Below, piece after piece: positions 53,303 to 56,419 of a stretch of DNA of 63,009 bases. The notes below the pieces were generated by a model that saw only the letters and a program-made list of their open reading frames with translations, had not been told where the DNA came from and did no database searches. The stretch comes from Flavobacterium sp. UGB4466. Lineage in GTDB: Bacteria; Bacteroidota; Bacteroidia; Flavobacteriales; Flavobacteriaceae. Position 1 is the first letter of the stretch; every line of letters begins with the position of its first letter. The stretch lies in the NCBI RefSeq assembly GCF_903469665.1, contig NZ_CAGKLC010000023.1:1-63009 (forward strand). Direction: 5' to 3'. Made by a program: the position numbers and the translations under genes.

Positions 53303-53334
53303 AAAAAGCTGACAGATTACTCTATCAGCTTTTT
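53303..53334 (-). terminator. Terminator after the small Lys/Ala-rich secreted protein gene
   Basis: AAAAAGCTGA pairs with TCAGCTTTTT, with an inner AGA/TCT pair. It ends in a T-run on both strands and lies 66 bases past the stop at 53401. Confidence 0.8.
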
Positions 53335-53400: not shown

Positions 53401-53586
53401 TTATTTTTGTGTTTTTGCTGCTTCCGGTTTAGCGGCTGCTTCTTTTTTCGCTTTTTTATCTGCTTTTTTCTCTTTTTTAGGAGCTTTTGCTTCTTTTACA
53501 GGGGCTGATTTTACTGGAGCTGTTTGAGCGTTCACCATCGCAACTGTTCCTAAAACAGCTACTGCCAACATTACTAATTTTCTCAT
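53401..53586 (-). CDS. Small Lys/Ala-rich secreted protein
   Basis: 61 aa from the ATG at 53586; the 11-codon longer frame starts in the leader. A signal peptide (MRKLVMLAVAVLGTVAMVNAQ) precedes a low-complexity basic tail of KKEKKADKK-type repeats and Pro/Ala. It is homologous to the two fused copies at 55908-56342, with near-identical signal peptides. The mature peptide is about 40 residues with roughly 40 percent Lys. The role is unknown; binding to anionic surfaces would fit the charge. It lies just downstream of the histidine kinase gene but has its own promoter with a candidate regulator box. Confidence 0.8.
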   Translation of the reverse strand: MRKLVMLAVAVLGTVAMVNAQTAPVKSAPVKEAKAPKKEKKADKKAKKEAAAKPEAAKTQK

Positions 53587-53630: not shown

Positions 53631-53666
53631 CAAAGATATTCTCACAAAATGAAGATAAAATGAAGA
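53631..53666 (-). promoter_or_regulatory. Promoter with direct-repeat regulator box, small Lys-rich gene 1
   Basis: The -7 box TATCTTTG (53638-53631) is preceded, 10 bases upstream, by TCTTCAT-TTTA-TCTTCAT (53666-53649), two direct repeats with 11-bp period. The repeat takes the place of a -33 TTG. The same arrangement occurs at 56384-56419. Confidence 0.65.
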
Positions 53667-53692
53667 TTAGGCCTGTCTGAAAAAATTAACTT

Positions 53693-55030
53693 TTAATTGT
53701 GTTTTTGCCCTCCCGGAAACAATAATGTAAAGGTGGTTCCTTTATCAATCTCAGACGTAACTTTTAATTCGATATGATGAAAAGAAGCAATACTCTCCGC
53801 AATAGCAAGCCCTAAACCCTGCCCCTCCTGATCTGAACTAAGTCTGGCAAATCTGTTGAATATCTGTTCTATTTGAAAATCATTCATCCCAACACCGGAA
53901 TCGGCAATAGAAATAAAATAGTAATGATCCTGAAAACCATCCGCAACACTTATGCTGCCCTGAGGTTTATTGTATTTTATGGCATTGGTAACCAAATTAT
54001 AAATAAGAATATGAATCAGCGTTTTGTTTCCTGTAAAAACATAATGATGGTTCATTTTATTCCAAAACTGAATTTCTCTGTCGTCGATACGATCCTGTAA
54101 GTCTTCCTGCAAATCGGTGACTATTTCATGAAAATTTATATTCTCGTTGGCTTCATACTGATTGTTTTCGATTCTGGAAATCAACAATAAATTATTAATG
54201 ATTTTTTTGAGCATATCTAATGTTTTCAATGCTCCTGCAATTTTATCAATAGCATTATCATCTAAAGATTCATTTTGCAATAAGTTCTCAAACTTACTTT
54301 TGAGCAATGCAATTGGCGTTAGCAGCTCGTGGGAAACATTTGATATGAACTGTTTTTCTTTTTTAAAAAGCTCCGCAATACGGTCCATCATTTGGTTTAA
54401 AACAGAATCGAGTTCTCTAAAATCATGAGACCTGACTTTGATTGGGGTATGATCAAAAGCCTCAGGCTCATTGACCCGCCTTATCTTGGTATCAATAATT
54501 TTATAAAAAGGCTTTAATAAGTATTCGATATAAAAAGTATCTGCCAAAAAAGTAATCAATAATATCACTACAAAAACGATAATAATAAAAAATCGGATGA
54601 TAAAAGTAAGGTCTTTTACTTCTCCCAAACTGCTTCCAATTTCGAGCTGGTATCCCTGATTTCCGAAGGTAAAATGATACTGCAAGATTCTGTATTCGTT
54701 TTCTTCTCCTTCAATAATTCGGTAGTCATTACTAAAAACAGGTTTTTTCTGGTCGTGTTTTAGAGAAGATTTTGAGAGCACCAAAAACTCGCTGTGAAGG
54801 GTTGAAAACTGTGAATAGGTTTCGGTCGAATCACCTGAATTTTCAATAAAGTCATCGATTTCATTCTGATTCAGATGTTCAATAAACTTCTGTTTCTTTT
54901 CGAGCAGCCCGTTATTGATATGCCTGTACACCACATTTTCTACCAAAATAGGCAGCATCAGCCATAAAATAAAAATAACCAACAGTCTTGTCAGCGCATT
55001 AAAAATAGCCAATTGATGTTTTATCTTCAC
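53693..55030 (-). CDS. Sensor histidine kinase
   Basis: A 445 aa inner-membrane kinase with a GTG start. Helices near 8-30 and 143-163 bound a periplasmic sensor region of about 110 residues, rich in acidic groups. A HAMP-like linker follows. The dimerisation domain has phospho-acceptor His234 in FISNVSHELLTP. The ATPase domain has the N box (LVTNAIKYNKP), G1 (DSGVGM) and G2 (GQGLGLAIAES). It is 12 bp downstream of the response regulator gene. The ligand is unknown; the adjacent Lys-rich secreted proteins suggest an envelope-related signal. Confidence 0.95.
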   Translation of the reverse strand: MKIKHQLAIFNALTRLLVIFILWLMLPILVENVVYRHINNGLLEKKQKFIEHLNQNEIDDFIENSGDSTETYSQFSTLHSEFLVLSKSSLKHDQKKPVFSNDYRIIEGEENEYRILQYHFTFGNQGYQLEIGSSLGEVKDLTFIIRFFIIIVFVVILLITFLADTFYIEYLLKPFYKIIDTKIRRVNEPEAFDHTPIKVRSHDFRELDSVLNQMMDRIAELFKKEKQFISNVSHELLTPIALLKSKFENLLQNESLDDNAIDKIAGALKTLDMLKKIINNLLLISRIENNQYEANENINFHEIVTDLQEDLQDRIDDREIQFWNKMNHHYVFTGNKTLIHILIYNLVTNAIKYNKPQGSISVADGFQDHYYFISIADSGVGMNDFQIEQIFNRFARLSSDQEGQGLGLAIAESIASFHHIELKVTSEIDKGTTFTLLFPGGQKHN

Positions 55031-55042
55031 AACCTGTATTCT

Positions 55043-55717
55043 TTATTCGTTTATACGATACCCTACATTTCTAACGGTTTCAAACCAATCAATTTCTGTA
55101 TGCTTGTCTAATTTTTTTCGAAGGTTTCTAACATGGACGTCAATAAAATTAGAGTCGGAATTGACTTCGAGAATGTCTCCCCAAATATGTTCTGTCAATT
55201 GCAACCTCGTAATTACTCTGTTTTTATTAAGGACTAAATACTGAAAAATATCAAATTCCTTTTTGGTCAAATTAATGGGCGTTTCATCATAACTCACTTT
55301 ATAATCCTGAAGCTGCAATAAAAAACCATGAATGCTTAAATTATTCATAGTAAAACCATGCATCCTGCGAATAACCGCAAACAATCGCGCACTAAGCTCT
55401 GTGAGGGCAAAAGGTTTGGTCAGATAATCATCGGCGCCCAGATGCAAACCATTTATCCTGTCATCCAGTTCTCCACGGGCTGTAAGTACAATAACGGCCA
55501 TTTTCGATTTCGTTTTACGAACTGTTTTCAGTACTTCAAATCCATCTCCGTCAGGCAGACCAAGGTCCAGCAGCATAGCATCATAATCATTACTGTTTAC
55601 CTCCTCCAGAGCATCACTGCAGTTGTGAACTATTTTACAGATGTAGCCTGCATTACACAGAAAATCGTAAACTTCTGCCGCAAGTTCTTTCGTATCTTCA
55701 ACAATCAAAATATTCAT
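55043..55717 (-). CDS. OmpR-family response regulator
   Basis: 224 aa from the ATG at 55717 (MNILIVEDTKE); a longer frame to 55774 adds 19 unlikely residues. The receiver domain has the acidic pocket (ED at 7-8), phospho-acceptor Asp51 (DLGLPDGDGF) and Lys near 101. The C-terminal winged helix (about 130-222; VNSDSNFIDVHVRNLRKKLD) binds DNA. OmpR-type regulators bind direct repeats with 10-11 bp period, and such repeats stand before both flanking Lys-rich genes. Confidence 0.95.
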   Translation of the reverse strand: MNILIVEDTKELAAEVYDFLCNAGYICKIVHNCSDALEEVNSNDYDAMLLDLGLPDGDGFEVLKTVRKTKSKMAVIVLTARGELDDRINGLHLGADDYLTKPFALTELSARLFAVIRRMHGFTMNNLSIHGFLLQLQDYKVSYDETPINLTKKEFDIFQYLVLNKNRVITRLQLTEHIWGDILEVNSDSNFIDVHVRNLRKKLDKHTEIDWFETVRNVGYRINE

Positions 55718-55801
55718 AATTCGACTTTTAAATGCAACTAAATTTAAGCAATTATAAAAAGCATTGTTACGCATTATTAAAAAAATTAACGAATAAAAAA
55801 A

Positions 55802-55825
55802 AGCCAGTAAATTTCTTTACCGGCT
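55802..55825 (-). terminator. Terminator after the fused Lys-rich gene
   Basis: AGCCAGTAAA pairs with TTTACCGGCT (one mismatch, TTTC loop) and is followed on the minus strand by eight or more T. Confidence 0.8.
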
Positions 55826-55907
55826 CTCTTCAACCGCATTCTCATAATCATTACTTCTGTTTTGCCTCGTATACAATTCTTCGTAAGCAAAACGAAAACA
55901 ATTTTTC

Positions 55908-56342
55908 CTACTTCATTTTGGTTGTTTCTGCTTTTGGAGCTTCGCTTTTTTGCGATTTCATTTTTTTATCGGCTTTGTTTTTGTGATGTTTAGTTGCTTT
56001 CACTTCTTTTGCAGGAGCTGTCTGTGCCGGAGCTGTTTGTGCGCTAACCATTACACTTGTTCCTAAAACTGCCACGAGTAACATTACTAGATTTTTCATA
56101 ATTTTTAATTTAAATTGATTTATCTTTTTTATCCTTTTATAGTCTTCTTTTTTTGCTTTTGGAGCTTCTGCTTTTGGAGCTGCCATTTTTGGTGATTTTA
56201 CTTTTTTATCCGCTTTGTGTTTAGGATGTTTGGTCGCTTTTACTTCTTTGACCGGAGCCGGTTTAACATCTTTAGCCGGAAATGCATGTACCATAACGCT
56301 TGTTCCCAAAACTGCTACTAATAACATCAATAAATTTCTCAT
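55908..56342 (-). CDS. Two small Lys/Ala-rich secreted proteins fused in frame
   Basis: 144 aa made of two paralogues. Copy 1 (1-65) starts MRNLLMLLVAVLGTSVMVHA and has a Lys/Pro/Ala tail. A linker (about 66-81, DYKRIKKINQFKLKI) reads like translated spacer. Copy 2 (82-144, ATG at 56099) starts MKNLVMLLVAVLGTSVMVSA. Copy 1 lacks its own stop; its end passes a run of seven A, and one extra A there would give a TAA five codons later. So this is either a recent fusion, a frameshift, or a sequencing error. Copy 2 may also be translated alone. Both copies resemble the gene at 53401-53586. Function unknown. Confidence 0.75.
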   Translation of the reverse strand: MRNLLMLLVAVLGTSVMVHAFPAKDVKPAPVKEVKATKHPKHKADKKVKSPKMAAPKAEAPKAKKEDYKRIKKINQFKLKIMKNLVMLLVAVLGTSVMVSAQTAPAQTAPAKEVKATKHHKNKADKKMKSQKSEAPKAETTKMK

Positions 56343-56383
56343 GATTTCTACATTTTTATATTAATACCTTTTATTTTACAGAT

Positions 56384-56419
56384 CAAATTTACCCTCGTAA
56401 TATGAAGACAAAATGAAGA
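56384..56419 (-). promoter_or_regulatory. Promoter with direct-repeat regulator box, fused Lys-rich gene
   Basis: The -7 box TAAATTTG (56391-56384) is preceded, 10 bases upstream, by TCTTCAT-TTTG-TCTTCAT (56419-56402). Sequence, period and spacing equal those at 53631-53666. The intervening bases also share a GAG. Confidence 0.65.

Follow-up and report, generated by a model that had tools for sequence, protein, structure and literature searches.

A paired TCTTCAT box beside an OmpR-family two-component system: a candidate regulon of predicted secreted basic proteins in Flavobacterium and other Bacteroidota

In Escherichia coli, the pho box takes the place of the -35 element and lies about 10 bp upstream of the -10 element, and the small, basic protein Asr is driven by RstA/RstB. 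For PhoP and PhoB sites, two 7-bp repeats separated by 4 bp are reported, the E. coli PhoB site being CTGTCAT(A/T)4CTGTCAT, and the authors of the PhoP-DNA structure extend this pattern to the OmpR/PhoB family, according to the available extracts of PMC4832192. Similarly, the available part of PMC10927774 gives YTTAAK as the direct-repeat site of Salmonella enterica PmrA, while that of PMC4800418 describes PorX as having a PglZ domain and being encoded apart from porY. Here, we analyzed a 63,009-nt stretch of Flavobacterium sp. UGB4466 (the window hereafter; genome size 5.34 Mb), in which a response regulator of the OmpR family and a sensor histidine kinase lie between two copies of the direct repeat TCTTCAT-N4-TCTTCAT, each located before genes for small lysine- and alanine-rich (Lys/Ala-rich) proteins. 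From sequence comparisons, we consider it highly probable that the regulator would act through this paired box on the flanking genes for predicted secreted basic proteins, and the regulon is very likely real and wider than one genome.

Exact copies of the box in the entire 5.34-Mb genome were limited to these two, one on either side of the kinase/regulator pair, where a first-order Markov model of the window predicts 0.11 boxes and 7e-5 composites of box, gap and TAnnTTTG. Both were on the minus strand at exactly the coordinates that the original prediction, made from the letters of this DNA, had given, and its 10-base distance from box to TAnnTTTG was likewise exact at both sites. The promoter elements are as follows:

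56402..56419, minus strand: candidate upstream operator box, TCTTCAT-TTTG-TCTTCAT, exact match
56384..56391, minus strand: -7 box TAAATTTG, 10 bp past the upstream box
53649..53666, minus strand: candidate downstream operator box, TCTTCAT-TTTA-TCTTCAT, exact match
53631..53638, minus strand: -7 box TATCTTTG, 10 bp past the downstream box

Both -7 boxes fit TAnnTTTG exactly, which is the sigma-A -7 consensus of Flavobacterium psychrophilum in the available portion of PMC9723704. The paired box occupies the -33 region of these promoters, and the TTTG that forms the spacer of some boxes is 17 bp before the -7 box and is not conserved. The usual spacing for a -33 element is 19-21. Additionally, an AT-rich stretch (TTAAAAGTTAA, TTAAAGTTAAAA) was present about 20-30 bp upstream of both window boxes and was partly kept in 35 downstream promoters of the genus; it may aid polymerase recruitment.

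When up to three mismatches were allowed, 15 matches were found in the window versus 11.9 ± 3.1 in shuffles, 20 of 100 of which reached 15, so that inexact window matches are at chance level and it is therefore the exact sites that count. This background would suit an origin of the boxes as chance repeats in an AT-rich genome, and the paralogy of the two window targets (57% identity) would suit promoters copied along with a duplicated gene and sharing descent. However, chance is ruled out by the two exact boxes against 0.11 expected, by the still lower expectation for exact composites and by conservation in the genus, while shared descent as the whole explanation is ruled out by boxes that precede unrelated genes (PepSY-like, regulator and DUF4382; see below) and were therefore not merely copied with one gene. 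Overall, we regard the probability of this explanation as negligible.

In a sample of 121 Flavobacterium genomes, source genome included, a kinase search independent of the box recovered an orthologue (at least 51% identity to the window kinase) in 35. Counting promoters with at most two mismatches in the box and three overall, the downstream box was present in 35/35 of these and the upstream box in 30/35, in keeping with the original prediction that the box should be conserved upstream of orthologous genes. By that count the upstream box was missing from G014, G044, G120, G064 and G073, of which G120 has the box and lacks the matching -7 box, and the match was exact in 50 of the 66 counted promoters. 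The repeats were the most constrained columns (1.86-1.97 bits each), as compared with the upstream flank (0.86-1.02) and the 10-bp gap (0.80-0.96). A profile built from the small proteins of the kinase loci gave strong matches (E <1e-8) in exactly the 35 kinase-bearing genomes, the best match in the remaining genomes being 1.8e-7, inside a 702-aa frame. Among the 86 genomes lacking the kinase, six had an exact box somewhere, in no case followed by an exact TAnnTTTG at 10 bp; one of the six, G017 (L041), was one base short of the composite. Further exact boxes (TCTTCATCTAATCTTCAT; G006, G109, G063, G057), and those at G094:C39 and in G112, were rejected as targets, having no TAnnTTTG at 10 bp, and a further box at G030:C73 was left outside the target reading.

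The distance between box and -7 box was also conserved: among boxes with at most one mismatch at kinase loci, TAnnTTTG was at exactly 10 bp for 64 of 67, the other three having none within 30 bp. This bears on whether the regulator might bind the box and repress, silencing the genes for the predicted secreted proteins in the absence of a signal, given that the box spans the -33 contact region of sigma, where a bound dimer could block access. A fixed 10-bp gap is explained by contact with polymerase and is unneeded for blocking, and PhoB-type activator sites standing in for the -35 element share this geometry, such that we regard repression as very improbable. Because the box occupies the position of the -33 element, we infer instead that the regulator probably switches on its small gene set, made up mostly of positively charged, predicted secreted proteins.

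We ran the composite TCTTCAT-N4-TCTTCAT-N10-TAnnTTTG, with no use of the regulator, over one genome each of 84,980 species, which returned at least 118 stretches, and examined 80 of these 118 loci. Flavobacterium and other Flavobacteriaceae (one filed as [Flexibacter]) accounted for 58, and the other 22 were from Pontibacter, Rufibacter, Adhaeribacter, Botryobacter, Pedobacter, Draconibacterium, several metagenome-assembled genomes (MAGs) of Bacteroidetes/Bacteroidales and one Calditrichota MAG. The original prediction had proposed scanning related genomes for what follows the box and TAnnTTTG, and in these 80 of at least 118 stretches it was mostly an open reading frame (ORF) whose N-terminus is hydrophobic and signal-peptide-like and whose remaining part is hydrophilic, basic and of low complexity (97 of 105 composites); only 15 of the 737 remaining TAnnTTTG sites of the 80 loci preceded an ORF of this type. 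Products ranged from about 55 to 445 aa overall, their sequence was not conserved between families, and those behind exact composites in the Pontibacter group of genera were 236-445 aa. In the Bacteroidales MAG L142, both genes next to the system encode basic proteins of low complexity that begin with a signal-like stretch; one gene has an exact composite in its promoter and the other a degenerate box.

Eight composites were without such an ORF (L085, L146, L088, L104, L120, L130, L145 and L154). That of L104, from the Pontibacter group, was otherwise the same kind of gene, cut by the locus end; L130 had a second box with no ORF in reach, and L145 a PepSY-like gene. In two Pedobacter loci (L085, 7857-7892, minus strand; L146, 756-791, minus strand), the composite was about 130 bp before the same L,D-transpeptidase-like ORF, with no kinase or regulator match within the stretches searched. 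In a Draconibacterium MAG (L120, 6008-6043, minus strand), it was just behind a kinase gene and ahead of a lipoprotein-like gene. Outside Flavobacterium, we also noted a conserved ~300-aa protein encoded between the basic-protein gene and the regulator (L342, L343, L344, L261 and L142), which is barrel-like by eye and reached the cut-off of no Pfam family in the three of three copies tested.

A second family, that of G284, was sampled with 120 genomes, and we take it to be the Hymenobacteraceae because the box stretch of G542 is the same as that of the Adhaeribacter record L136; 85 of the 120 had a kinase match at E ≤1e-70. Where the kinase scored at least 638 bits, the composite (at most one mismatch) was present in 35/35 genomes and exact in 33, while the other 85 genomes had it in three (G532, G589 and G615), none exact. 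A reversed control pattern gave three matches in all among the 120 genomes at up to two mismatches. In Pontibacter (genus g172), the box is also 10 bp before GATATTTG at a gene of the DUF4382 family (PF14321), which is mostly unlinked to the cassette and is found in genomes both with and without the kinase/regulator system. The DUF4382 box (at most one mismatch) was present in 16 of 19 Pontibacter genomes with the system versus 2 of 19 without it, that is, without a kinase match at 1e-70 (Fisher p ~1e-5, uncorrected for descent). Genomes with no DUF4382 match (G531, G557, G583, G605 and G625) were left out of this count; G623 has two copies, and in G521 the gene is beside the kinase. On the gene tree, the box followed the system in 3.7 of eight independent pairs on average, with no difference in 4.3 and a reversal in 0, so the direction of the association is uniform and the number of events small. 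Among eight DUF4382 upstream regions from other genera of the family, six of them with a top-tier kinase, the box was present in G542 only, with one mismatch.

The set of genes behind the box is thus wider than the compact regulon originally proposed: the two flanking small-gene promoters stand, and PepSY-like genes, the regulator gene of G082 and Pontibacter DUF4382 are to be added. The PepSY-like genes with a box scored 16.5 bits in G065 and 26.7 in G111, both below the cut-off of 28.3, and 29.0 in G272, above it, where the gene is second in a box-led unit; in G082, a box with one mismatch precedes the regulator gene itself. A kdsA-like promoter in which the composite has one mismatch, TCTTCATCTGCTATTCAT standing 10 bp before TACCTTTG (G000 contig 47, 8409-8444, plus strand; L074), was shared by G432, G440, G049, G361 and G288, and is held doubtful because G288 carries the site without the kinase.

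These additional sites also bear on whether the box serves another regulator, PhoB-type or a different OmpR paralogue, and is merely near this two-component system. The 7+4+7 layout is also that of E. coli PhoB sites, whose repeats likewise end in TCAT, as far as the extracts of PMC4832192 go, and box-like sites occur without this kinase in G615 and G288. Yet composites, small genes and kinase share a phyletic pattern, with exact composites in 35/35 kinase-bearing versus 0/86 kinase-negative genomes of the genus, DUF4382 is mostly box-less in Pontibacter genomes that lack the system, and the G082 box precedes the regulator gene of this very system, all of which render another regulator improbable.

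Several observations weigh against the assignment of the box to this regulator. The genus box sits within a co-inherited cassette, and its co-occurrence with the kinase is therefore not independent of linkage. The kinase profile on which the score tiers are based (A1) includes kinases from box loci, and the split between high and low scores is therefore favored. The DUF4382 box was absent from three of the 19 Pontibacter genomes with the system, and among the genomes that have it without the system, the site is intact in G615, the -7 box being broken in G541; moreover, the gene-tree test, with only eight independent pairs, gave p = 0.125. The thresholds for the ORF type in the collection-wide scan were chosen after the sequences had been looked at. 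Across 395 genomes sampled from the phylum (24 of the genus, 12 each with and without a full-length kinase, and 371 others), the composite with at most one mismatch was found in 12/12 genus genomes with the kinase and 1/12 without it; the latter is G288, with its site before kdsA though the kinase is absent. Furthermore, the composite was absent from 10/10 non-genus genomes of this sample with a full-length kinase match of at least 446 bits, and several regulators of box-less loci keep the same recognition helix.

At a distance from Flavobacterium, one-mismatch composites were present in 4 of the 371 non-genus genomes with no recognizable target, as compared with 1 of 395 for the reversed control. 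Of 18 loci near distant kinase orthologues, only Flavobacterium L258 had full boxes. In L264 (9452, minus strand) and L266 (1733, plus strand), TTTTCAT-N4-TTTTCAT was 10 bp before a -7-like box, changed in L264, and an ApbE-like gene near the distant orthologue of the system; the remaining loci had neither full boxes nor TTTTCAT repeats. At some box-less loci, reading by eye showed, next to the system, a gene for a basic, secreted-like protein of low complexity. Either the sites of box-less loci have drifted past the search pattern (compare the TTTTCAT repeats), or the regulon has been rewired.

The order of parts on the minus strand of the window is box, -7 box, 144-aa frame, hairpin, response regulator, kinase, box, -7 box, 61-aa gene and hairpin, confirming the original placement of an OmpR-family regulator and its kinase between the two small-gene promoters:

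55908..56342, minus strand: upstream target, a fused 144-aa frame of two tandem small Lys/Ala-rich genes with two signal-peptide-like stretches
55796..55831, minus strand: terminator-like hairpin behind the upstream target, by pattern match alone
55043..55717, minus strand: OmpR-family response regulator, 224 aa, start MNILIVED (PF00072, PF00486)
53693..55030, minus strand: sensor histidine kinase, 445 aa, PorY-like by domain and profile matches
53401..53586, minus strand: downstream target, a Lys/Ala-rich protein of 61 aa beginning with a signal-peptide-like stretch, ATG at 53586
53303..53334, minus strand: terminator-like hairpin behind the downstream target, by pattern match alone

Earlier in-frame starts would lengthen the regulator to 243 aa and the downstream target to 72 aa (upstream ATG), and no RNA element was found at the locus in Rfam at gathering score. 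The four domains of the pair, PF00072 and PF00486 of the regulator and HisKA and HATPase of the kinase, all exceed Pfam cut-offs. The regulator domains, together with a 7-bp repeat and 4-bp spacer as in the PhoP/PhoB sites given in the extracts of PMC4832192, agree with the "OmpR-type" label and 11-bp period of the original prediction. The best NCBIfam score of the regulator was for PmrA/BasR, at 187.1 bits against a cut-off of 330, and membership in PhoB was likewise rejected (169.9 of 296.2 for TIGR02154 and 144.6 of 270 for NF053854). Its closest solved structures were DrrD of Thermotoga maritima, followed by PmrA/BasR 4s04 and 8jo2. The kinase was closest to the PorY family, with 261.6 bits where the cut-off is 350. 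The fold of its sensor domain gave no hint of the signal: among solved structures, the matches listed for the kinase model (mean pLDDT 74.7) were kinase structures, mostly over ~220-280 columns.

The expectation of one tiny product per promoter held for the downstream target and not for the upstream one, in which two tandem copies share a frame. The small-protein profile (A3) matched the latter strongly at 55911-56099 and 56148-56342, and the 144-aa protein has a second, internal signal-peptide-like stretch because two small genes are fused in one frame. In F. tructae (L138), separate ORFs of 65 and 63 aa are present in place of the fused frame, next to a regulator that is 99% identical. Beyond the signal-like start, net charge was +9 for the downstream product and +24 for the fused upstream product. 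Among 12 proteins compared beyond their N-terminal 22 residues, the window pair matched each other only (BLAST, E ≤1e-3).

Being short, basic and predicted to be secreted, the products might be signals or ligands that act on the kinase or on neighboring cells, and their genes adjoin that of a membrane kinase; in the periplasmic part of this kinase (taken as residues 32-135), acidic residues outnumber basic ones in nine of 10 orthologues. However, their spread in length and lack of sequence conservation between families are unusual for a ligand, and genes for processing or export were not noted beside them, so that we view a ligand role as unlikely, if worth keeping in mind. We tentatively favor, at somewhat less than even confidence, that the products may act in the periplasm as disordered, envelope-protecting polycations, much like E. 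coli Asr; this is the least certain step of what we propose.

Under our proposal, the kinase would sense a condition of the envelope and phosphorylate the neighboring OmpR-family regulator, which would then bind the two repeats as a head-to-tail dimer. The bound dimer would touch polymerase at promoters that have the box in their -33 region, leading to transcription of the predicted secreted basic proteins. More speculatively, and in our estimation rather improbably, this could amount to a self-contained envelope-charge homeostat across Bacteroidota, made up of a kinase whose periplasmic part is mostly acidic, a regulator that reads a fixed 7+4+7+10 promoter code, and secreted polycations that evolve quickly and are under selection for composition, not sequence. 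These polycations would neutralize the envelope and in turn act on the kinase.

The composite constitutes a precise promoter code for an OmpR-type regulator in a phylum that departs from the -35/-10 promoter layout of E. coli, and it comes with a named partner and only a short list of targets in each genome. It also links a control system to families of short and basic, predicted secreted proteins, which are called hypothetical where they are named at all, and therefore one deletion strain could reveal their purpose. We found no prior description of the TCTTCAT box or the regulon in the open-licence literature, outside of which most subscription papers lie.

As compared with the best described systems, the locus is like E. 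coli PhoB and its pho box, as laid out in the extracts cited above, in having two 7-bp direct repeats, an AT-rich 4-bp spacer and a regulator of the OmpR/PhoB family. It differs in its repeat (TCTTCAT here, CTGTCAT in the pho box), its Bacteroidota -7 box and the absence of phosphate genes among the targets seen. With PmrA/BasR it shares a direct-repeat site, as available for that system in part, while the repeat is another and lipid A modification genes are absent among the targets seen. Unlike PorY/PorX, as far as PorX is covered in the extracts, the kinase here has an adjoining partner with a receiver and a DNA-binding Trans_reg_C domain. Like E. coli Asr, the products are low in complexity and, here by prediction, secreted; no match of the window products to an Asr family was found in Pfam (E ≤1) or NCBIfam (E ≤0.1), and the resemblance appears to be one of composition and predicted location, not homology. 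The kind of operator is thus known already, and it is the combination of regulator, code, products and promoter class that appears to be new.

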